Assembly (NCBI GenBank): GCA_017455205.1
Contig: JAFTBM010000008.1
Coordinates: forward strand, 1-38,169
DNA from: Bacteroidales bacterium
GTDB lineage: Bacteria > Bacteroidota > Bacteroidia > Bacteroidales > P3
Direction of reading: 5' to 3'
DNA length: 38,169 nucleotides
The translations under genes were made by a program, and so were the position numbers. Positions 26,558 through 38,169 of the stretch are shown piece by piece. The notes under the pieces were generated by a model, which was not told where the DNA came from, did no database searches, and saw only the letters and a list, made by a program, of their open reading frames with translations. Numbering within the stretch: position 1 is the stretch's first letter; each line of letters opens with the position of its first letter.

Positions 26558-27121
26558 TTACTTTGCATCGCGACCAGCGCGGATGGCGGCTATGTTGGTG
26601 GCCACTACCTCCTCGCCTTTGCGACCGAAAATGCTGCCGATGGCTTTCTCAAGCTCCTCGAAACCAATCTCCAAATAGGGCGCAGCGGCACCGAGCAGCA
26701 CCATGTTGCCGCGCGCTCCCAGCTCCTTGGCGATGGCGTTGGCATTGAAGCTGACGCACCGCGGAAGCTTGGCCAGCTCGGCATTGACTTTCTCAATATC
26801 GGGGTAATTGCTGATATTGATGAAGGGGTCGCTGTTGGTTATCACCACGCCATCGGGAGCCAAGAACGGCAAATATCGCAGTGCCTCCATCGGCTCACTG
26901 CTGAGGATAATGTCGGCTTTCCCCTCGGGTATGACGTCCGAGAAGATAGGCTTTGAACTGATGCGCAGGTGGCTGAACACCGAGCCTCCGCGCTGGCTCA
27001 TACCATGGATTTCGCTTTGCTTGACGTTGAGCCCCAAGCCGAGGGCAGCGTCGCTGATAATTTTGGCCACCGAGACGATACCATCGCCTCCCACGCCACT
27101 CAATATGATGTCTTTTTTCAT
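26558..27121 (-). CDS. iorB: Indolepyruvate:ferredoxin oxidoreductase beta subunit
   Basis: 187 aa, full length. It begins MKKDIILSGVGGDGIVSVAK and contains SEIHGMSQRGGSVFSHLRI and DPFINI, typical of the 2-oxoacid:ferredoxin oxidoreductase gamma-type domain as in IorB. With IorA it oxidises aryl pyruvates (from aromatic amino acids) to aryl-acetyl-CoA, reducing ferredoxin. iorA, normally just upstream in the same operon, is absent here; phage-like genes begin within 57 nt. No promoter motif is evident directly upstream. Confidence 0.9.
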   Translation of the reverse strand: MKKDIILSGVGGDGIVSVAKIISDAALGLGLNVKQSEIHGMSQRGGSVFSHLRISSKPIFSDVIPEGKADIILSSEPMEALRYLPFLAPDGVVITNSDPFINISNYPDIEKVNAELAKLPRCVSFNANAIAKELGARGNMVLLGAAAPYLEIGFEELEKAIGSIFGRKGEEVVATNIAAIRAGRDAK

Positions 27122-27178
27122 CGTGTTTGATTTTTAGTTGTTTATAAATTTGTTATCACTTCTACGCACGTTTTTAAG

Positions 27179-27454
27179 TTATTTTTCGGCTTTTAGATAC
27201 ATTGGGTGGAGCATATCTCCGAGGCCGGTGAGTAGCCAGAGGGCTGACACGCCATAGTTCATTATCAACGGCTGGAGCCAGTCGAAGTGGAACATGTGGG
27301 TGGCGTTGTCTTTCCGAAGCGAATAGATGTTGCGAGAATCAAAGCCGCCATCGGTGCAGTACGATTGTACACTTTCGATGTCTTTTCTCGCGATGAGCGT
27401 TTCAAGTGCCTGGAAGAAACGCCTGGTTACTTGCTTGTCAATTTCTGTGTGCAT
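27179..27454 (-). CDS. Phage-type HTH regulator-like protein
   Basis: 91 aa. It has a helical N-terminus (RRFFQALETLIARKDI), a recognition-helix-like middle (NIYSLRKDN) and the ending YGVSALWLLTGLGDML. That ending closely matches the end of XRE/CI-type DNA-binding domains in Bacteroidetes phages. There is no C-terminal peptidase domain. It is the last gene of the leftward lysogeny-type operon, 23 nt after the nuclease-like gene. It could be an autorepressor or an immunity accessory. Confidence 0.65.
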   Translation of the reverse strand: MHTEIDKQVTRRFFQALETLIARKDIESVQSYCTDGGFDSRNIYSLRKDNATHMFHFDWLQPLIMNYGVSALWLLTGLGDMLHPMYLKAEK

Positions 27455-28618: not shown

Positions 28619-29062
28619 CTATGCAGTTGGCTTCACCATGGCTATAAGTTCGGAAATTTGCTGGTCTTTGCTCGCCATCGAAGTGGCGTTTCTGTCGATG
28701 ATACCGATAAGACGTTTTATCTCTGCCATGCAGTCGCCGGTATTATCTTGTTTCTGAACGCCGTTATTGATACCATTATTGACAAGTGCATTGCTCGCCG
28801 AGGTCTCGTTGTGATTTTCAACGGCAAGCATATTGCCCTCGCCGAAGACGAGCCATGTCTTATCCACTTCGGGGAATGCATCGGCAATACGATATAAAAC
28901 TTTTAACGAAGCATTCTTTGTTCCATTGCAATATGCACTTGTATTAGAAGTGTGGTCGCCCATTCTTTCAGCAAATTCGATGTTATTTCCATTACAAAAA
29001 TAATCACGAATTTTTGTGATTCTTGAGGCTAAATTGGCCTCCGAGGACTGTTTTGTTTTCAT
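28619..29062 (-). CDS. CI-like phage repressor without peptidase domain
   Basis: 147 aa. Residues about 10-80 form an XRE-like HTH domain (ITKIRDYFCNGNNIEFAERM, then DKTWLVFGEGNML). The C-terminus (about 105-147) is a short helical, possibly coiled-coil tail (CMAEIKRLIGIIDR, SKDQQISELIAMV). It lacks the S24 self-cleavage domain of lambda CI, so induction would need another route. It diverges from the rightward early operon across a 212-nt AT-rich region. Confidence 0.8.
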   Translation of the reverse strand: MKTKQSSEANLASRITKIRDYFCNGNNIEFAERMGDHTSNTSAYCNGTKNASLKVLYRIADAFPEVDKTWLVFGEGNMLAVENHNETSASNALVNNGINNGVQKQDNTGDCMAEIKRLIGIIDRNATSMASKDQQISELIAMVKPTA

Positions 29063-29523: not shown

Positions 29524-31569
29524 ATGAAATTACAACTTAAATTGATGCGTCTGCGGAATTTCGAGGCCGTGATTGACCATACATATAATTATGGTCAAAT
29601 CACCGAAATCTGCGGAACGAACGGTACGGGCAAGACAACGCTATTCAATGCGTTCACCTTTGCTCTTTATGGCAAGGACAGCAATGGCCGAGCTGACTTT
29701 GGTTTCAAACGCCGCGACAGCGACGGCAATGTGGTTCACAATGCCGAGTACGGTGTGGAACTGGTATTCGATAAAGACGGAAAGGAGCGTGTCTTTGAGC
29801 GCGTTGTCACCGAGAAATGGGTCAAGCCGAGAGGTGCCAGCGAAAAGGTACTTTCTGGCCACGAAACAGTCTACTACGTTGACCGTGTGCGCTGCAACAC
29901 GATGAAAGAGTATATCGCCGCCGTGAATGAGATAGCAATGGAGGACGTTCTGCGTATGCTCACCGACACCTTCTATTTCATGTCGCTTGGTGCCGACACC
30001 AAGAAAGCCATGTTGCTCAAAATGGCCTACGGCACAGAGGACAGCATCGAAGCCGACAAGATGGTTGCTGACGATGTGGTGAAGAAAATGCCCGAATTCG
30101 CGACGTTTGTCGCCGACCTTAATGGAATTACGCTCCGCGAGTTTAATGCCACCATACAAGGCAAAATCAATGCGATTAAGGCCGAATTAAACGATATTCC
30201 CATTCGTATCGCCTCGAAGATTGAGGCCAAGCCCGCCGAGGAAGACTGGGACGACTTACAGGCCATCATCGACGAGAACCGCGCCGCCATTGCCGAGATA
30301 GACAAGCAGATTGCGGATGATGATGCACGCAAGACCGGAAGCGAACAGAAGAAGAACGCCCTCCGCGCCGAGTTGAGCAACCTCGAACTGGAACTTGTCA
30401 AGGCACAGAACGCCGTCCGTCAGCGAGTGGACAACGAAGAGCACGAGAAGCGCCAGGCACTTGCCAATGCCGAATCGGACTACAGCATCGCCACCCGTAT
30501 CTACAACAGCAACGCCGAGCAGATGGACGGCAAGAAGCGTGAACGCGAACAGACTGCCGCCAGGTATGACACGATGATTGCGGAAGCGGAGAAGATAGTG
30601 GACGGGTATGAGGCAAAGGTAACTGCATTGCGCGACCAGTACAAGGCCATCGTTGCTGGAACCTACTCTTACGCTCCTAATGAAATGGAGTGTCCCACCT
30701 GCCACCGTCCGTATGATATGGATAAGCTGGCCGAGCAGAAGAAGGCCGAGAATGTCGCCCTCGGCACCAACGTCATCAAGGTGCTTCTGCCGCAGGCCAA
30801 AGAGCAGGTGGAAATCCTCAAACACAAGAAAGCCGAGGTGTTGGCACAGATTGACAAGGAGTTGACCGACATAGAGAACAATATGCTGGAGGCGCGCAAC
30901 AAGATTGATGCCGCATACAAGTGGAAAGCGGAAATCAACTTCATCCCTGCCGATGTCAATGCGCTCTGCAAGTCCGACCCGAAGTGTGTCGGTGTGAGCA
31001 ACGCCATCGCCGTCAAGCGCAAGCAGATTGACGAGTTCCCGGCCATCGTGTCCGACCACGTATTGCTCGATACGAAGCACGAAGCCGAGGACAAGCTGAA
31101 CCAACTGCAACAGAAGCTCGGCACACGCAATATCATCATTAACATCGATGCACAGATTGCCGAACTGGAAGCCAAGCAGAAAGCCCTTAATAACGAACTC
31201 GGCAAACTGGAGAAGCAGCAGGATACCGCCAAGGAATTCCAAAAGGCCAAAGACCGCGAACTGCTTGCCAAGGTCAACGGCCTCTTCACCCGTGTGACGT
31301 GGGATTTCGTCAGCGAACAACTCAACGGCAACGACAAAATCACTTGCAACTGCTATATGGACGGCAAGCCCTATGGTGAGTGCAACCACGCCCTGCAAGT
31401 CAATGCCGGTCTCGACATCATCAATGCCATCAGTCGCAACCAAAACATCTACCTACCTATCTTCATCGACAACGCCGAGAGCGTGGTGGAGTATATGCCG
31501 ACTGAGAGCCAGATGATACTGCTCAAAGTGGACGGCAGCGCAAAGGAACTGACCTTTAATATCAAATAA
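29524..31569 (+). CDS. Phage Rad50/SbcC-like ATPase
   Basis: 681 aa. Walker A GTNGTGKTT lies at residues 31-39. Two long coiled-coil regions (about 200-385 and 410-590) flank a zinc hook CPTC at 390-393. The C-terminal Walker B is YLPIFIDNAES, with D649 followed by N, not the usual DE. No LSGGE-like signature is seen; the matching place reads ECNHALQVNAGLDII, as in a phage subfamily. It should act on DNA ends with a nuclease partner, but no SbcD-like gene is adjacent. First large gene of the early operon. Confidence 0.85.
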   Translation: MKLQLKLMRLRNFEAVIDHTYNYGQITEICGTNGTGKTTLFNAFTFALYGKDSNGRADFGFKRRDSDGNVVHNAEYGVELVFDKDGKERVFERVVTEKWVKPRGASEKVLSGHETVYYVDRVRCNTMKEYIAAVNEIAMEDVLRMLTDTFYFMSLGADTKKAMLLKMAYGTEDSIEADKMVADDVVKKMPEFATFVADLNGITLREFNATIQGKINAIKAELNDIPIRIASKIEAKPAEEDWDDLQAIIDENRAAIAEIDKQIADDDARKTGSEQKKNALRAELSNLELELVKAQNAVRQRVDNEEHEKRQALANAESDYSIATRIYNSNAEQMDGKKREREQTAARYDTMIAEAEKIVDGYEAKVTALRDQYKAIVAGTYSYAPNEMECPTCHRPYDMDKLAEQKKAENVALGTNVIKVLLPQAKEQVEILKHKKAEVLAQIDKELTDIENNMLEARNKIDAAYKWKAEINFIPADVNALCKSDPKCVGVSNAIAVKRKQIDEFPAIVSDHVLLDTKHEAEDKLNQLQQKLGTRNIIINIDAQIAELEAKQKALNNELGKLEKQQDTAKEFQKAKDRELLAKVNGLFTRVTWDFVSEQLNGNDKITCNCYMDGKPYGECNHALQVNAGLDIINAISRNQNIYLPIFIDNAESVVEYMPTESQMILLKVDGSAKELTFNIK

Positions 31570-31881: not shown

Positions 31882-32658
31882 ATGGAAAACAAGGAAAACA
31901 AAGAGACTGCGGTTGTGATGCAACCGATGAACCCCAACAAAGTAAGTGTCTTTCTCAACACCGACCGCTTCGAGCAGGTGCAACGTGCCTGCCGTGCGCT
32001 GACACAGAGCGACCTCGTGCCGGATATGTACCGCGTATCGCAAAAGAACCCCGAGAGCAAGGCCATAGCCAACTGCATGATTGCGCTGGATATGGCCGAC
32101 CGTATGGGTGCAAATCCCCTGATGGTGATGCAAAATATGTACATCGTCTATGGCCGTCCCGCATGGAGCAGCACGTTCCTCATTGCAACCGTCAACTCCT
32201 GCGGACGTTTCAAGCCGCTGAAGTTTATGCACGGACAGGATGGCGAAGTTGAACTGAACGGGCGCAAGATGCCTAACCTCACCTGCTATGCTTACACCAC
32301 CGAGAAGAATGGAGAGGACGAGCTGCGCGGTGCTGTTATCAGTCTTGCAATGGCAAAGGCCGAGGGATGGCTTAGCAAGAGTGGCAGCAAGTGGCAAACG
32401 ATGCCCGAACAGATGCTTATCTATCGTGCCGCCTCGTTCTGGACACGCACCTACGCACCCGAAATCAGTATGGGTATCTACACCGCCGAAGAGAACGAGG
32501 ATATTCAGGCCGTCGAGGTTATCAGCAGCACACCAAACCAGCCCCGACAGAGGGTTGAGTTTATTGAGGCTACCGAGGTTACGACCGAGCAACCTGCCGA
32601 AGCTCTTGCCGAGCAGCCACAGCCCGAGCAACCCAAGACCGAGGAGGCTCCGTATTGA
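31882..32658 (+). CDS. RecT-like single-strand annealing recombinase
   Basis: 258 aa. The central segment IANCMIALDMADRMGANPL, NMYIVYGRPAWSSTFLIATV, and KWQTMPEQMLIYRAASFW with TYAPEISMG are the conserved positions of the RecT-type phage annealing family. The C-terminus is low-complexity, rich in Pro, Glu and Gln. No matching exonuclease gene is visible; the upstream Rad50-like ATPase may partly fill that role. It is followed by a stem-loop at 32667-32730. Confidence 0.75.
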   Translation: MENKENKETAVVMQPMNPNKVSVFLNTDRFEQVQRACRALTQSDLVPDMYRVSQKNPESKAIANCMIALDMADRMGANPLMVMQNMYIVYGRPAWSSTFLIATVNSCGRFKPLKFMHGQDGEVELNGRKMPNLTCYAYTTEKNGEDELRGAVISLAMAKAEGWLSKSGSKWQTMPEQMLIYRAASFWTRTYAPEISMGIYTAEENEDIQAVEVISSTPNQPRQRVEFIEATEVTTEQPAEALAEQPQPEQPKTEEAPY

Positions 32659-32954: not shown

Positions 32955-33401
32955 ATGTTAATAAAAGAAGGCAAAAGATTAAAGTCATCGAATGAGGTTG
33001 AACCTTACACACTAATGTGTGGAGATTGGATTGACTCTTCCGATGGTCATCTACAAGTCGAAGAGGTTTGTAGAACGGCAAACTCAATTTGTATTTACAG
33101 TCCGTATGCAGATGGATGTCTCGTGGGATGCGGATTATTATTGTATGGTATTCCCATAACTCATAGAAGACTTGCTAAAAATGGTTTCCGTAAAATCAAA
33201 GGTAAAAATGTGCGAGAGTTTGATACTGGTAAAATAGAAGAAGAAATAACAATATCCGATGTAGAAGATGGTACATGGCATTTGATTATCGGCACCATTA
33301 AAAATGGACATGATATTGAGATTGAATGTAATGTTCGTTTTTTTCACGAACTACAGCAAGCATTAAGATTTGCATCAATAAGAGCAAAATTGCAACCATG
33401 A
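32955..33401 (+). CDS. Phage protein, unknown function
   Basis: 148 aa, AT-rich codon use unlike the genes on either side. The segment GIPITHRRLAKNGFRKIKGK and the late WHLIIGTIKNGHDIEI with FFHELQQAL follow a pattern I associate with short proteins of Bacteroidetes phages and mobile elements, but no function is known. The stop overlaps the MBL-fold gene start (ATGA). Confidence 0.6.
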   Translation: MLIKEGKRLKSSNEVEPYTLMCGDWIDSSDGHLQVEEVCRTANSICIYSPYADGCLVGCGLLLYGIPITHRRLAKNGFRKIKGKNVREFDTGKIEEEITISDVEDGTWHLIIGTIKNGHDIEIECNVRFFHELQQALRFASIRAKLQP

Positions 33402-34126
33402 AATTAAAAGTATTAGGAAGCAGCAGCGCCGGAAACGGCTACATTCTGCAAGGTGAGCGACAGACACTCCTGCTCGAAGCGGGGGTGCCTATCGCCGCCG
33501 TCCGCAAGCACGTCGATGACTTCCGAACCATTGTCGGGTGCCTCGTCAGCCACAGTCACGGCGACCACGCTAAGTACATCGCCGACTACGCAAAGGCTGG
33601 CATTCATATCTATGCCGACGAGGACGTGTGCCTTTCGTGCAAAGGCGTTCATGTGAACAGCCTAACGATACTTGAGGACGGCGACCAGTTTAGAGTCGGC
33701 GGCTTCCGCGTGATGGCCTGCTCCGCCAACCACGATGTGCCGTGCCTCGGCTACTTCATCCTCCACGACGAGATGGGCAGCCTTGCCTTTATCACCGACA
33801 GCCACGACTATCAGTATTCGATGACCGACCTGCAGCACCTCATGATTGAGGTCAACTGGAGTGAGGAACTGCTGCGCCAGGCCGTCGACGAGAAGCGCAC
33901 GCCGTGGTTCGTCGCCAAGCGTGTCCGCGAGACCCACATGGGGTTGCACAATGCAATCAACTATATACAGGAAGAGGTTAGTCTCGATGCGCTTCGCGAG
34001 ATAGTAATGCTCCACCTGAGCTACGAAAACAGCGACCCTCGTGTGTTTACCGAAGAGATAACGAAAGCCTTCCAAAAGCCGACCTTCGTGGCAGCAGAGG
34101 GGCTGGAGATAGAACTGAAACGATAA
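33398..34126 (+). CDS. MBL-fold metallo-hydrolase, phage type
   Basis: 242 aa. The metal motif HSHGDH at residues 52-57 (H52, H54, D56, H57) follows the first strands (KVLGSSSAGNGYILQ, LLLEAG), with later CSANHDVP and FITDSHDY supplying further ligands. The fold is that of beta-lactamase-like nucleases and phosphodiesterases. Members in phage early regions are of unknown substrate. It sits between RecT-like and NinB-like genes, with overlapping or abutting junctions, so a DNA or nucleotide role is inferred. Confidence 0.85.
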   Translation: MKLKVLGSSSAGNGYILQGERQTLLLEAGVPIAAVRKHVDDFRTIVGCLVSHSHGDHAKYIADYAKAGIHIYADEDVCLSCKGVHVNSLTILEDGDQFRVGGFRVMACSANHDVPCLGYFILHDEMGSLAFITDSHDYQYSMTDLQHLMIEVNWSEELLRQAVDEKRTPWFVAKRVRETHMGLHNAINYIQEEVSLDALREIVMLHLSYENSDPRVFTEEITKAFQKPTFVAAEGLEIELKR

Positions 34127-34558
34127 ATGGAAACCCTATTCATAGCGAAGCAAGACGGCATCTGCGACCTGCGGGGTCTGTGGGCGTGGTTCACCAATGC
34201 GCTCGACGGCAACTACCGTGTGGAGATAAAGCGCATACGGCGCAAGCGCACCCTCGACCAGAACGGATGGCTCTTCGGCTGCATCTACCCTATGCTGCTC
34301 AAAGGGCTCAACGATGCCGGGTGGGAGTTCACTTCGATAGAAGAGGTACACGAATACTTCAAGGCCATGCTATGGAAGAAGCGTATGGTGAACAAGCACA
34401 CGGGCGAGATAGTGGAGATACCGCTTTCGACCACCGAGATGGACACCGTGCAATTCAGCACCTACTGCGACAGCCTCCGTGATTATGGCCGCGAATACCT
34501 CGACATCGAAGTCCCTGACCCCGACAAGCTATGGTTTGAGAAAGAGAAACAAGTATGA
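34127..34558 (+). CDS. NinB-like recombination protein
   Basis: 143 aa, starting directly after the MBL gene stop. The motif RRKRTLDQNGWLFGCIYP, then EVHEYFKAMLW and STTEMDTVQFSTYCDSLRD with IEVPDPDKLW, fits NinB-like phage recombination proteins (lambda Orf group), which bind single-stranded DNA and SSB. Assignment is by pattern, not alignment. Confidence 0.65.
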   Translation: METLFIAKQDGICDLRGLWAWFTNALDGNYRVEIKRIRRKRTLDQNGWLFGCIYPMLLKGLNDAGWEFTSIEEVHEYFKAMLWKKRMVNKHTGEIVEIPLSTTEMDTVQFSTYCDSLRDYGREYLDIEVPDPDKLWFEKEKQV

Positions 34559-34748: not shown

Positions 34749-35636
34749 ATGAGCAAAGACGCATTTTATTTTAAGCATGACAGCAACGCTCGCAATGACG
34801 AGAAAGTGCTGGCTCTCCGACAGAGGTTCGGCATGGAGGGCTATGGTATCTACTGGGCCATCATAGAGAAGATGCGCGACTCCGCCGACTACTACCTCAC
34901 CACCGGCTATAAGACCATCGCCTGGGAATTGCGCTGCAAGGAACAGACAGTGAAGAGTATCATCGAGGACTTCGGCCTCTTCTACATCGAGGATGGCCGC
35001 TTCACCTCGCAACGGCTCCGCGACGATATGCACCAATGGGAGGAACGCCGCAATGCTCGCGCCGAGGCCGGGCGACGCGGTATGCAATCCCGATGGAAGA
35101 AGAATGCCGAGGCACCGAAAGAGCCGCCGCAGACCCCGACGGAACAACCGCCTTTAGTGCTAACCGCCGAGCCTCAGATACCGCCCGCAGAGCCGAAGAA
35201 AACACTCCCAAAGCGGTATACTGACGAGCAGACGGAATTGCACTCGCGCTGCAAGGAGATATTTAGCACCCTCTACCGTCAGGCCAAAGGTGCCGAGTTT
35301 ATATGGAGTGCCAAGGAGATGAGGATGCTGGTGGACGTGATAAGCAAGGTGAAGAGCCAGATGAATGCCTCGGGCTTCGACAGCAACAACCTTGACCTTG
35401 TGGCCTACAACTTTGGGGCTTTCGTGCAAAAGATGTTCGAGAGAGCCGACGCATGGTTGGTAGCCAACGCCTCGCCGTCCATCATGGCAAGCAAATTCAA
35501 CGAGATTTACACACAAATAAAAAACCACACAACAAATGGGAACAAACCTACAACTAACAACGTTGGGAACGCAAGAGACAATGCAGATTTCCTGGCCAGC
35601 ATCGCTTCAGCTATACAGTCCGCTAATGCTCAGTAA
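34749..35636 (+). CDS. DUF4373 (Lin1244/Lin1753-like) replication protein
   Basis: 295 aa. The N-terminal domain starts FYFKHDSNARNDEKVLAL and contains MEGYGIYWAIIEKMRD and DFGLFYIEDGRFTS, the hallmark of DUF4373, a winged-helix domain found in phage and element replication-initiation or DnaD-like proteins. The middle is a Pro/Glu-rich linker (about 115-155) and the C-terminus helical. It overlaps the following gene by 101 nt or less depending on that gene's start. Confidence 0.8.
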   Translation: MSKDAFYFKHDSNARNDEKVLALRQRFGMEGYGIYWAIIEKMRDSADYYLTTGYKTIAWELRCKEQTVKSIIEDFGLFYIEDGRFTSQRLRDDMHQWEERRNARAEAGRRGMQSRWKKNAEAPKEPPQTPTEQPPLVLTAEPQIPPAEPKKTLPKRYTDEQTELHSRCKEIFSTLYRQAKGAEFIWSAKEMRMLVDVISKVKSQMNASGFDSNNLDLVAYNFGAFVQKMFERADAWLVANASPSIMASKFNEIYTQIKNHTTNGNKPTTNNVGNARDNADFLASIASAIQSANAQ

Positions 35637-36590: not shown

Positions 36591-36620
36591 TATTTACAAA
36601 ACCAATTAAAAACAACCAAA

Positions 36621-36962
36621 ATGCAAAAAACAGACAAAGTAAGAATAGCCAACTACGTCTATCCCAAAGAGCGAGACCGCGACTGCTACGAAATCGGCAT
36701 CTACCTCGCCACCGATGGCAAACGCTGGAAATATGGCATAGACCAGTGGTGGGGCAAGAACGGCGAAGATGGAGGCTGTGCAAGTGAAAGCGAGCTGAAG
36801 TACAAATCCCAACACGATGCAGCCAAAGACGCTTTCAACAACATCATTGTATCACTTATGGCTATGCACGATGGCGAGACGGCTATGGCTTTCAAACACA
36901 TGTACACCGACTACCTCCAAGGTCGCACTCGCCTACCAGGAGCACAACTTTCATTATTCTAA
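36621..36962 (+). CDS. Small protein ending in a sliding-clamp-binding motif
   Basis: 113 aa from ATG at 36621 (MQKTDKVRIANYVYPKERD); the frame is open further upstream but crosses the stem-loop. The body is mixed charge with IDQWWGKNGEDGG and a helical DAAKDAFNNIIVSLM. The last five residues, QLSLF, match the consensus pentapeptide by which proteins bind the bacterial beta clamp. Function otherwise unknown. Confidence 0.65.
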   Translation: MQKTDKVRIANYVYPKERDRDCYEIGIYLATDGKRWKYGIDQWWGKNGEDGGCASESELKYKSQHDAAKDAFNNIIVSLMAMHDGETAMAFKHMYTDYLQGRTRLPGAQLSLF

Positions 36963-36983
36963 ACCCTCAAAACAAAACACACA

Positions 36984-37172
36984 ATGAACGAAGAATTTAC
37001 ACCCAAAATCACAAAACAGACAGTAGTCTACAATGCTGATGGTGCAGAAATCGCACGGCTGGAGGGACATGTAGTCATCCGACCTAAAGACTACGAAGAG
37101 CAACTTCCCGTGGAATACCACCACATCACCACCACTACTGAAGTAATCGCAATCGCACGAATTGAAAAATAA
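36984..37172 (+). CDS. Small unknown protein
   Basis: 62 aa (MNEEFTPKITKQTVVYNADG start). Beta-rich, acidic, with a Thr/Glu tail. It sits in phase with the dense small-gene run. No family recognised and it could be spurious. Confidence 0.45.
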   Translation: MNEEFTPKITKQTVVYNADGAEIARLEGHVVIRPKDYEEQLPVEYHHITTTTEVIAIARIEK

Positions 37173-37196
37173 TACAAAACCAAAACAACACACCTT

Positions 37197-37859
37197 ATGG
37201 CAAACATTGTAGAAATCTTAAGGAAAGCCCCGAAAGGCTTCACTCTCTACTCGCCCATTTTCGGGGAGTGCAAGTTAGAAGAAGCGAGAAAAGACATTAT
37301 CCTCGTCAAAGACAATACTGGCTCTTGTTGGTACTTTCGTCCCGACGGGAGATACCTTGGTAGAGGTGAAATAATGCTTTTCCCCAGTCGCGAAGTCCGT
37401 GATTGGGAAGCCTTTGAAAAAGCCTTGCTTAAACCCGAAGACAAGCATTCTGACTATGTAAACCTTGGCCTGCCCAGCGGCACGCTGTGGAAAAGCACCA
37501 ACGAGGACGACTTCTTCACTTTTTACGAAGCAGTTGAAAAGTTTGGAGATAACATGCCTACCAAAGAGCAATGGGAAGAACTTAAAAACAACTGCACTTG
37601 GCAATGGGAAGGCAACGGATATACCGTGAAAGGTAAGAATGGTAAACAAATATTCCTGCTCGCCGCTGGCCGTCGCTACGGTACGAGCCTCTACGATGCC
37701 GGCGGCTACGGCTACTACTGGTCGTCGTCGCTCGACACGGACTACCCGGGCGACGCGTGGGGCTTCAGCTTCGATTCCGGCACCCAGGGCATGGACGACA
37801 ACGACCGCAACGGCGGCTTCTCTGTCCGACTGGTAAAAACGAAAGGAGGCAACAAATGA
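37197..37859 (+). CDS. C-type-lectin-fold (FISUMP-like) protein, likely DGR target
   Basis: 220 aa, no signal peptide. The N-terminal module (about 1-80, APKGFTLYSPIFGECKLEEA, GRGEIMLFPS) is common in Bacteroidetes phages. Residues about 85-215 form the FISUMP / C-type-lectin-like domain: VNLGLPSGTLWKSTN, MPTKEQWEELKNNCTW, LLAAGRR, YYWSSSL and the end GFSVRLV. The last ~55 codons are GC-rich with few A and mostly NNC codons for Tyr, Asp, Gly, Ser and Asn, whereas the first part is A-rich. That is the signature of a variable repeat rewritten by adenine mutagenesis. The next gene overlaps by ATGA. Confidence 0.8.
   Translation: MANIVEILRKAPKGFTLYSPIFGECKLEEARKDIILVKDNTGSCWYFRPDGRYLGRGEIMLFPSREVRDWEAFEKALLKPEDKHSDYVNLGLPSGTLWKSTNEDDFFTFYEAVEKFGDNMPTKEQWEELKNNCTWQWEGNGYTVKGKNGKQIFLLAAGRRYGTSLYDAGGYGYYWSSSLDTDYPGDAWGFSFDSGTQGMDDNDRNGGFSVRLVKTKGGNK
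37671..37838 (+). other. Candidate DGR variable repeat
   Basis: From CGT at 37671 to the GTA AAA near 37838. By my count 27 of the first 165 bases are A, and tac, gac, ggc, agc, acc and aac codons stand where relatives have Asn. Restoring AAC at these sites would give an Asn-rich template as seen in known DGR templates. The 3' end (GGCTTCTCTGTCCGACTGG) would be the initiation-of-homing side. Template and reverse transcriptase are not in the window. Confidence 0.6.
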
Positions 37860-38169
37860 AAGGCTACACCACCATTGACATCAGCCTGCACCCATTGGCG
37901 TGGGAATGCCTAAAACGAACCGCCATCAACACCGAACAAGGCATCCTGCTCTTCCACGACTGGCCATACGATATGATAATACAATCCCTCGAAGAAGAGC
38001 ATATCGCCACCGCCTACGAACTCAAACGCAAGCCACAATACATGCAAGCAGGCAAAATCCTCGTCCCACTAAAAGACTTCAAGTGTAGTGGCACATATAT
38101 CCGCATCTCACAGCAAGTTGCTATCAGCCTCGCCCTCTACCGTGCCGAAATGAACAACATCTGCACCCA
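37856..38169 (+). CDS. Unknown gene coupled to the DGR target, cut by the right edge
   Basis: At least 104 aa, no stop before the window end. It begins MKGYTTIDISLHPLAWECLK; ATG overlaps the previous stop (ATGA), with GGAGG 8-12 nt upstream, an unusually good ribosome site for this order. No reverse transcriptase or Avd-like motif is visible. Its coupling suggests a partner or accessory of the lectin-fold protein. Confidence 0.65.
   Translation, partial: MKGYTTIDISLHPLAWECLKRTAINTEQGILLFHDWPYDMIIQSLEEEHIATAYELKRKPQYMQAGKILVPLKDFKCSGTYIRISQQVAISLALYRAEMNNICT

Follow-up and report, generated by a model that had tools for sequence, protein, structure and literature searches.

A short gene at the right-hand end of a Bacteroidales contig raises the question of whether its 3′ part is the variable repeat (VR) of a diversity-generating retroelement (DGR) and, if so, which template repeat (TR) and reverse transcriptase (RT) supply its variation. 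The window, the whole 38,169-nt stretch that we analyzed, is the complete contig C47 of a genome assembled in 69 contigs (2.17 Mb, 93% complete). A sequence-only reading had proposed that the gene ends in such a repeat.

The target gene and its prophage setting

The compositional break behind that proposal is clear: between the first 456 nt of the ORF (37197-37859) and the segment 37653-37838, A content falls from 32% to 16% and G+C rises from 45% to 65%, abruptly at the VR edge, while C-ending codons go from 50 of the first 152 to 40 of the next 62 (Fisher p = 3e-5). The encoded protein, P0001, has no hydrophobic leader, in keeping with the proposed absence of a signal peptide; its best 12-residue hydropathy within the first 45 residues is 0.64, compared with 2.7 for a lipoprotein target on contig C50. 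The family models TIGR02145 (22.9 bits, cut-off 41.65) and Lcl_C (21.6 bits, cut-off 34.9) match P0001 weakly, neither PHROG nor PDB returned a match for it, and a PDB search with the family profile gave a weak match to 8q4e (E 0.0045). The N-terminal module was matched by eight of the nine phage records found, and the two annotated phage records with this module that we fetched both list it as a Crassvirales hypothetical protein. Among the 190 family genomes searched, the module occurs at E <= 1e-6 in this genome only, and residues 1-151 were matched in 39 of 120 genus genomes, mostly over approximately residues 83-150. Searches for relatives of P0001 in viral_contigs and with alignment A1 in genome_contigs found none.

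By reading of its genes, the window is mostly chromosomal from position 1 to ~27,100, with DNA polymerase III alpha, RuvA and indolepyruvate oxidoreductase beta as markers. From ~27,180 onward the genes are phage-like, beginning with HsdR-N/endonuclease-type and repressor-like proteins and continuing with rightward early genes (Table 1). Phage replication and recombination genes within a chromosomal contig mark the element as a tailed-phage prophage, and the proposed placement of the target among replication genes held up, with neighbors matching SbcC-like, RecT-like, NinB/Orf, hydrolase and replication-initiation families. The prophage's left end (26558-27180) abuts the indolepyruvate oxidoreductase beta gene, which has no alpha gene beside it within the window, and an IorA search did not place the other end of the prophage. 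In viral_contigs, a RecT search returned 49 loci, and relatives of the downstream gene and of one upstream small gene were not found.

We saw neither an integrase nor virion genes within the window, whose contig ends. A second prophage carrying a paralogue of the target lies on contig C41, a chromosomal contig by its FabG-type gene. C47 and C41 end at the identical base, inside shared sequence, and a search with the window's 3′ end found no third contig that continues them, the only other match being 59 nt at 83% on contig C51. The late genes of these prophages are unseen because both contigs break at this one base and nothing continues them. Contig C51 carries a related third prophage (L281:4878-16840) with a head-maturation protease gene and a weakly matched terminase gene (E 1.6e-4). 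The homologue of the downstream gene sits upstream of this protease gene, and up to the contig end the C51 prophage has no RT match and no VR gene beside the shared downstream gene.

Table 1. Features of the target gene, its prophage neighborhood in the window and related phage loci
Feature	Position or locus	Strand	Remarks
Repressor-like protein, prophage left part	28619..29062	-	phrog_8, 8.1e-8
SbcC-like ATPase	29524..31569	+	phrog_77, 6.2e-40
RecT-like ssDNA annealing protein	31882..32658	+	phrog_561, 1.8e-76
Metal-dependent hydrolase	33398..34126	+	phrog_392, 4.4e-57
NinB/Orf-like recombination mediator	34127..34558	+	phrog_72, 3.6e-21
Lin1244-type replication initiation protein	34749..35636	+	family match
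Small prophage gene, also in C41 copy	36621..36962	+	11/363 nt differ over 36600-36962
Small prophage gene, also in C41 copy	36984..37172	+	7/234 nt differ over 36963-37196
Target gene P0001, 220 aa	37197..37859	+	prophage-borne, no leader; C41 paralogue 75% identical in protein
Phage module, N-terminal ~78 residues	37197..37430	+	matches to phage records
Short FISUMP-like domain, presumed C-type-lectin-like	37437..37838	+	scores under curated cut-offs
Variable repeat (VR)	37653..37829	+	34 differences from TR at L023/C31:1416-1592, 28 at TR adenines
Gene 3′ end, TR identity gone	37830..37859	+	no IMH-like tail; best stem 4 bp in next 200 nt
Gene downstream of target	37856..38169	+	start overlaps target stop; broken off at contig end
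DGR-variable leaderless FISUMP-like genes, phage G194	L186/L262/L267/L270		
DGR-variable leaderless FISUMP-like genes, phage G193	L185/L265/L272		

Template, reverse transcriptase and variable repeats

We found one RT match in the whole assembly (PF00078 search, E <= 0.001), located on contig C31. The protein scores 49 bits against RVT_1 (cut-off 29.6) and contains the motifs IGNLTSQ and YVDD; its best PDB match is 8ub7 ('Reverse transcriptase', 2.8e-29), which we take to be the BPP-1 DGR enzyme, and the next is a maturase (9.6e-9). No dedicated DGR model matched it, and the best NCBIfam model was a group II RT (97 bits, cut-off 300). Directly upstream of the RT lies the TR, an AAC-rich, 177-nt near-copy of window positions 37653-37829. 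The two sequences differ at 34 sites, comprising 28 of the 51 TR adenines and 6 of the 126 other sites (hypergeometric p = 3e-13), and 19 of the 21 TR asparagines are changed in the window copy. The 3′ part of the target gene is a DGR variable repeat, as had been proposed. The variable patch originally drawn at 37671-37838 also stands, with its bounds corrected to the template-matched core; the near-copy expected to differ only at A exists, but six non-A core sites differ as well. Likewise, the template and RT exist in the same genome but not nearby. An RT and TR next to the target are usual, though not obligatory, and here the RT is on C31 and the target on C47. C31 carries HtpG, deoxyribonuclease IV and TerC/Alx genes and, therefore, the DGR is on the chromosome.

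The C31 DGR has its own cis VR upstream of the TR, changed at 32 of 54 adenines and 4 of 145 other sites, and an accessory-type ORF (C31:710-1246) between the two. Relatives of this ORF adjoin the DGR RTs of genomes G059 (47%) and G105 (30%), so that related ORFs are seen at three DGRs of the genus: between VR and TR at L023 (C31):710-1246 and L088:1440-1976, and upstream of the VR gene at L092:5468-6124. They have no Pfam match and no credible PDB match, and an NCBIfam search of the L023 ORF gave none; the ORF could possibly be a new type of accessory protein.

Counting this one, 18 of 120 genus genomes contain RT relatives, and VR-type matches are present in six of six RT-bearing congeners. 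In a scan of ten RT loci, TR/VR pairs were scored leniently for mismatches at A, which partly builds an A bias into the resulting pairs. Pairs were found at eight loci and not at L093 or at L086, which ends at a contig end. All pair mismatches are at A in L087 (28), L090 (20), L091 (24) and L094 (22); the corresponding counts are 32 of 35 in L023, 13 of 14 in L089, 16 of 20 in L092 and only 30 of 48 in L088. Compared with the window VR, the genome's own TR is the nearest of the eight tested (5% non-A difference versus 15-36% for the TRs of seven congeners), and a congener TR as sole template source was rejected at these differences. Stretches containing an exact 19-mer of the VR number 54 in genome_contigs and 5 in viral_contigs; among the 45 best of the exact matches in L199-L257, the closest has 25 differences from the genome's TR over 140 non-A sites.

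When the genome was searched at the protein level, 21 matches reached E <= 1: the TR, 7 close VRs that align to it almost gap-free with a score of at least 257, and 13 others (on C58, C15, C30, C69, C1, C64 and C10) that were left out because they have gapped alignments or more non-A differences. The close VRs are those of the window, C41, C31 in cis, C14, C45 (with a 3-nt insertion) and two on C50, where C14, C45 and C50 were taken as bacterial contigs by reading their ORFs. Compared with the TR, A-site changes number 24-32 of 54 in the five non-prophage VRs, 28 of 51 in the window VR and 20 of 51 in the C41 VR. The non-A changes are 1, 4, 4, 4 and 15 of 145 in the five non-prophage VRs, and in each prophage VR 10 of 134 over a longer span and 6 of 126 in the core. 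One C50 target is a visible lipoprotein, and the other four non-prophage targets are broken off at contig ends. Contigs C14, C31, C45, C50, C41 and C47 each start or end within ~335 nt of a VR, so that assembly breaks mark DGR targets. Among the matches left out, a very long FISUMP protein on C15 (L029:11252-11450) has gapped VR-like segments with 27 of 51 A-site differences and 16 elsewhere; it may be an older target or one of another kind.

The window VR carries non-A variants that the present TR lacks. Those at TR 39 and 49 are common to four of the five non-prophage VRs, whereas those at TR 87 and 91 are common only to the C50 minus-strand VR, with which the window has a block around TR 86-99 in common, two non-A variants included. 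Therefore, the present C31 TR is not the exact template of the window VR, and older states of the C31 TR, or a second copy outside the assembly, are needed. The best A-site agreement of the window with any other VR in the assembly is 28 of 51; therefore, no donor is visible now.

The two prophages allow a direct comparison of alleles. They have the same immediate neighbors, while the further early genes of the C41 prophage differ (RecE-like, SSB and DnaC-like loader). Within the VR, 33 of 177 sites differ, 25 of them at TR adenines (p = 5e-10), whereas the sequence directly beside the VR is 98-100% identical, with 5 differences in 262 nt before it and 0 in 30 and 2 in 310 after it. Thus, the VR has changed at adenines since the copies' common ancestor, and the expectation that allele differences would map to template A was borne out for most of them. 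In the N-terminal codons (37197-37390 versus L024 (C41) from 18521 onward), 62 of 194 nt differ; this pattern is unlike that of a DGR and suggests an exchange of modules.

Routes of variation into the prophage gene

The data make it likely that the 3′ end of the target is a prophage-carried VR whose adenine variation is made in trans by the chromosomal C31 DGR. The host DGR, or very close kin of it, appears to be the source of variation for the cytosolic protein of both prophages. In the proposed mechanism, the C31 TR and RT would act in trans on the VR of the prophage gene, with C31 in an earlier state, rather than a lost close relative, as the probable template. Other bacterial contigs hold at least five more genes served by the same DGR lineage, of which one is clearly a lipoprotein gene.

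The delivery step would differ from classical homing. In both prophage VRs, identity with the TR ends at TR 178 and the tail, TR 179-199, is absent. The five other VRs run on to TR 199, four with a single C/A tail difference at 198 and the C50 minus-strand VR with five differences in its tail. No stem-loop was found downstream of either prophage VR (best stem 4 bp within 200 nt), compared with stems of 7, 7, 11, 17 and 22 bp after the other five, a contrast that is only partly significant because 13.5% of 400 random windows reach a stem of at least 7 bp. For BPP-1, an IMH and the hairpin that follows it are among the conditions given for a recipient, and the hairpin, according to the abstract, influences efficiency (PMC3240598). 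The prophage VRs have neither of these features, the IMH-like 3′ tail or the downstream hairpin. Given the missing IMH-like tail, we consider recombination, with either mutated cDNA or a copied host VR, a likelier delivery route than classical homing.

Several alternatives bear on this mechanism. The VR may have been acquired from a host VR gene in one or a few homologous recombination events and now be a static patch, with the prophage locus itself no working DGR target; this reading would concern the delivery step and is compatible with C31 acting in trans. The missing tail and stem-loop, the abrupt jump in G+C at the VR edge and the TR 86-99 block in common with the C50 minus-strand VR would all fit such a capture. 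However, for every other VR in the assembly, A-site agreement with the window stays within the 28 noted above, and the prophage copies have 25 A-site differences despite nearly identical flanks, so change reached the VR at least once after the copies split; we regard a static patch as possible but doubtful. It is unlikely that the prophage has a DGR of its own, a close relative of the host's, whose RT and TR lie in the unassembled part and act in cis. This arrangement would agree with the break of C47 and C41 at the same base, with the RTs and TR/VR pairs found in viral records with FISUMP-like genes (below) and with the fit of the window VR to a slightly different TR version. On the other hand, the 93%-complete genome has one RT match, the C51 prophage runs through its head protease and terminase-like genes without an RT match (though its contig ends too), the phage records G193 and G194 keep, in the VR of their leaderless FISUMP-like gene, the 3′ tail that the prophage VRs here have lost, and the variants at TR 39, 49, 87 and 91, common to chromosomal VRs, point to the host lineage.

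Ordinary FISUMP sequence, rich in G+C and biased toward C-ending codons with no retroelement involved, is hardly credible as an explanation. FISUMP-like domains are common in the genus (39 of 120 genomes), and two C58 paralogues, not counted as close VRs, show some A bias. We compared the C30, C69 and C58 paralogues with the TR and found odds ratios of 1.9 and 1.8 for C30 and C69 (p = 0.06 and 0.09), against 24 for the window, while the C58 pair gave 4.7 (p = 6e-6) and 2.2 (p = 0.02). Plain FISUMP variation was ruled out by the absence of significant A bias in C30 and C69, though the C58 pair leaves this control less than uniformly clean, and by the A-specificity of the window VR, the presence of a TR beside an RT in the same genome and the concentration of prophage allele differences in the VR at template adenines. 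A chance repeat was ruled out by the same hypergeometric test of A-site differences.

A more specific form of delivery from the C31 DGR is a long shot: the host RT's adenine-randomized cDNA might be pasted by phage annealing or recombination enzymes into an IMH-less gene that offers TR homology only. The candidate enzymes would be the RecT-like protein in the window element and the RecE-like protein and SSB in the C41 element; among six proteins tested from the C41 element, none was an annealase. DGR cDNA has been combined with an annealing protein in engineered form, a combination that our literature search did not return. If true, this would amount to recombineering by an RT in nature and would give temperate phages a new means of borrowing hypermutation.

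Viral relatives and known systems

An alignment search with the short FISUMP domain found 12 viral loci. Four of the 12 viral records have an RT match, and all four of those have TR/VR-type pairs. In two IMG/VR phages, G194 and G193, the VR belongs to a FISUMP-like gene with no obvious leader and matches the phage's own TR, with differences at 17 of 51 A sites and 17 of 148 non-A sites in G194 and at 23 of 47 and 44 of 160 in G193; in both, the non-A differences cluster toward the 5′ side and the 3′ tail is kept. The TR/VR pairs of G192 and G200 are in larger frames. L183 and L189, two fragments that come from separate metagenomes, have 16 differences in 2,356 positions; 13 of these lie within two neighboring 60-nt bins close to the 3′ end of a leaderless FISUMP-like gene. 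Among the nine neighbor proteins that we checked at L182-L186 are DNA methyltransferases, a PAPS reductase, a DNA polymerase processivity factor, a primase or primase/helicase and a portal protein, and two matched only families of unknown function. Programmed variability of leaderless phage proteins near replication or DNA-modification genes is, from these sequences, a recurring feature. G193 and G194 resemble the window prophage in that their VR-bearing FISUMP-like gene is leaderless, with primase or DNA-methyltransferase genes nearby; unlike it, they carry RT and TR on the same record and keep the VR's 3′ tail. The window prophage stands out in that a phage RT was not found and the template lies on the host chromosome.

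Remote DGR targets are in print for Thiohalocapsa PB-PSB1 (PMC10907252) and Treponema denticola (PMC4891356); in both, an RT and TR serve VRs elsewhere in the genome, as proposed here, and the VRs are likewise judged by their non-A match to a distant TR. The targets described there are cellular, whereas here two of the seven close VRs are in prophages, and the T. denticola DGR locus is described as having no association with phage genes (PMC4891356). The second DGR target of the Quimbyviridae resembles ours in being a hypervariable C-type-lectin protein of a Bacteroidetes phage that is non-structural and near defense-type genes, but there the phage itself carries the RT, the TR and the targets, whereas the sole TR and RT found here are on the host chromosome (PMC8008677). 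The tail-fibre DGR of BPP-1 has the same adenine-specific TR to VR change; its target has an IMH and hairpin, and ours is a leaderless early-region gene with neither (PMC3240598). Prophages with more than one VR are also in print (PMC11792537), and a large DGR survey states that remote targets would escape it (PMC8144416). Our literature search of titles and abstract starts found no host-chromosome DGR acting on prophage genes. While trans DGR targets and non-structural phage targets are each known, a host-chromosome template for prophage targets would be new.

By family resemblance, the VR would form the binding face of a small cytoplasmic lectin-like domain, joined to a phage-specific N-terminal module. 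We infer that the target protein binds, through a changeable face, an intracellular partner that is most plausibly a varying host or rival-phage protein involved in defense, counter-defense or superinfection control. A binder that gains from constant change and sits with replication genes would be suited to recognizing a variable intracellular partner, such as a host defense protein, an anti-defense target or a protein of a rival phage, and a role in phage-host conflict was proposed for a comparable non-structural target (PMC8008677). If host chromosomal DGRs diversify prophage genes, the targets and beneficiaries of hypermutation have been undercounted and host evolvability is harder to separate from that of phages. 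Programmed variability in leaderless phage proteins encoded beside replication genes would also offer a concrete system in which to ask which intracellular partner merits such a chase.
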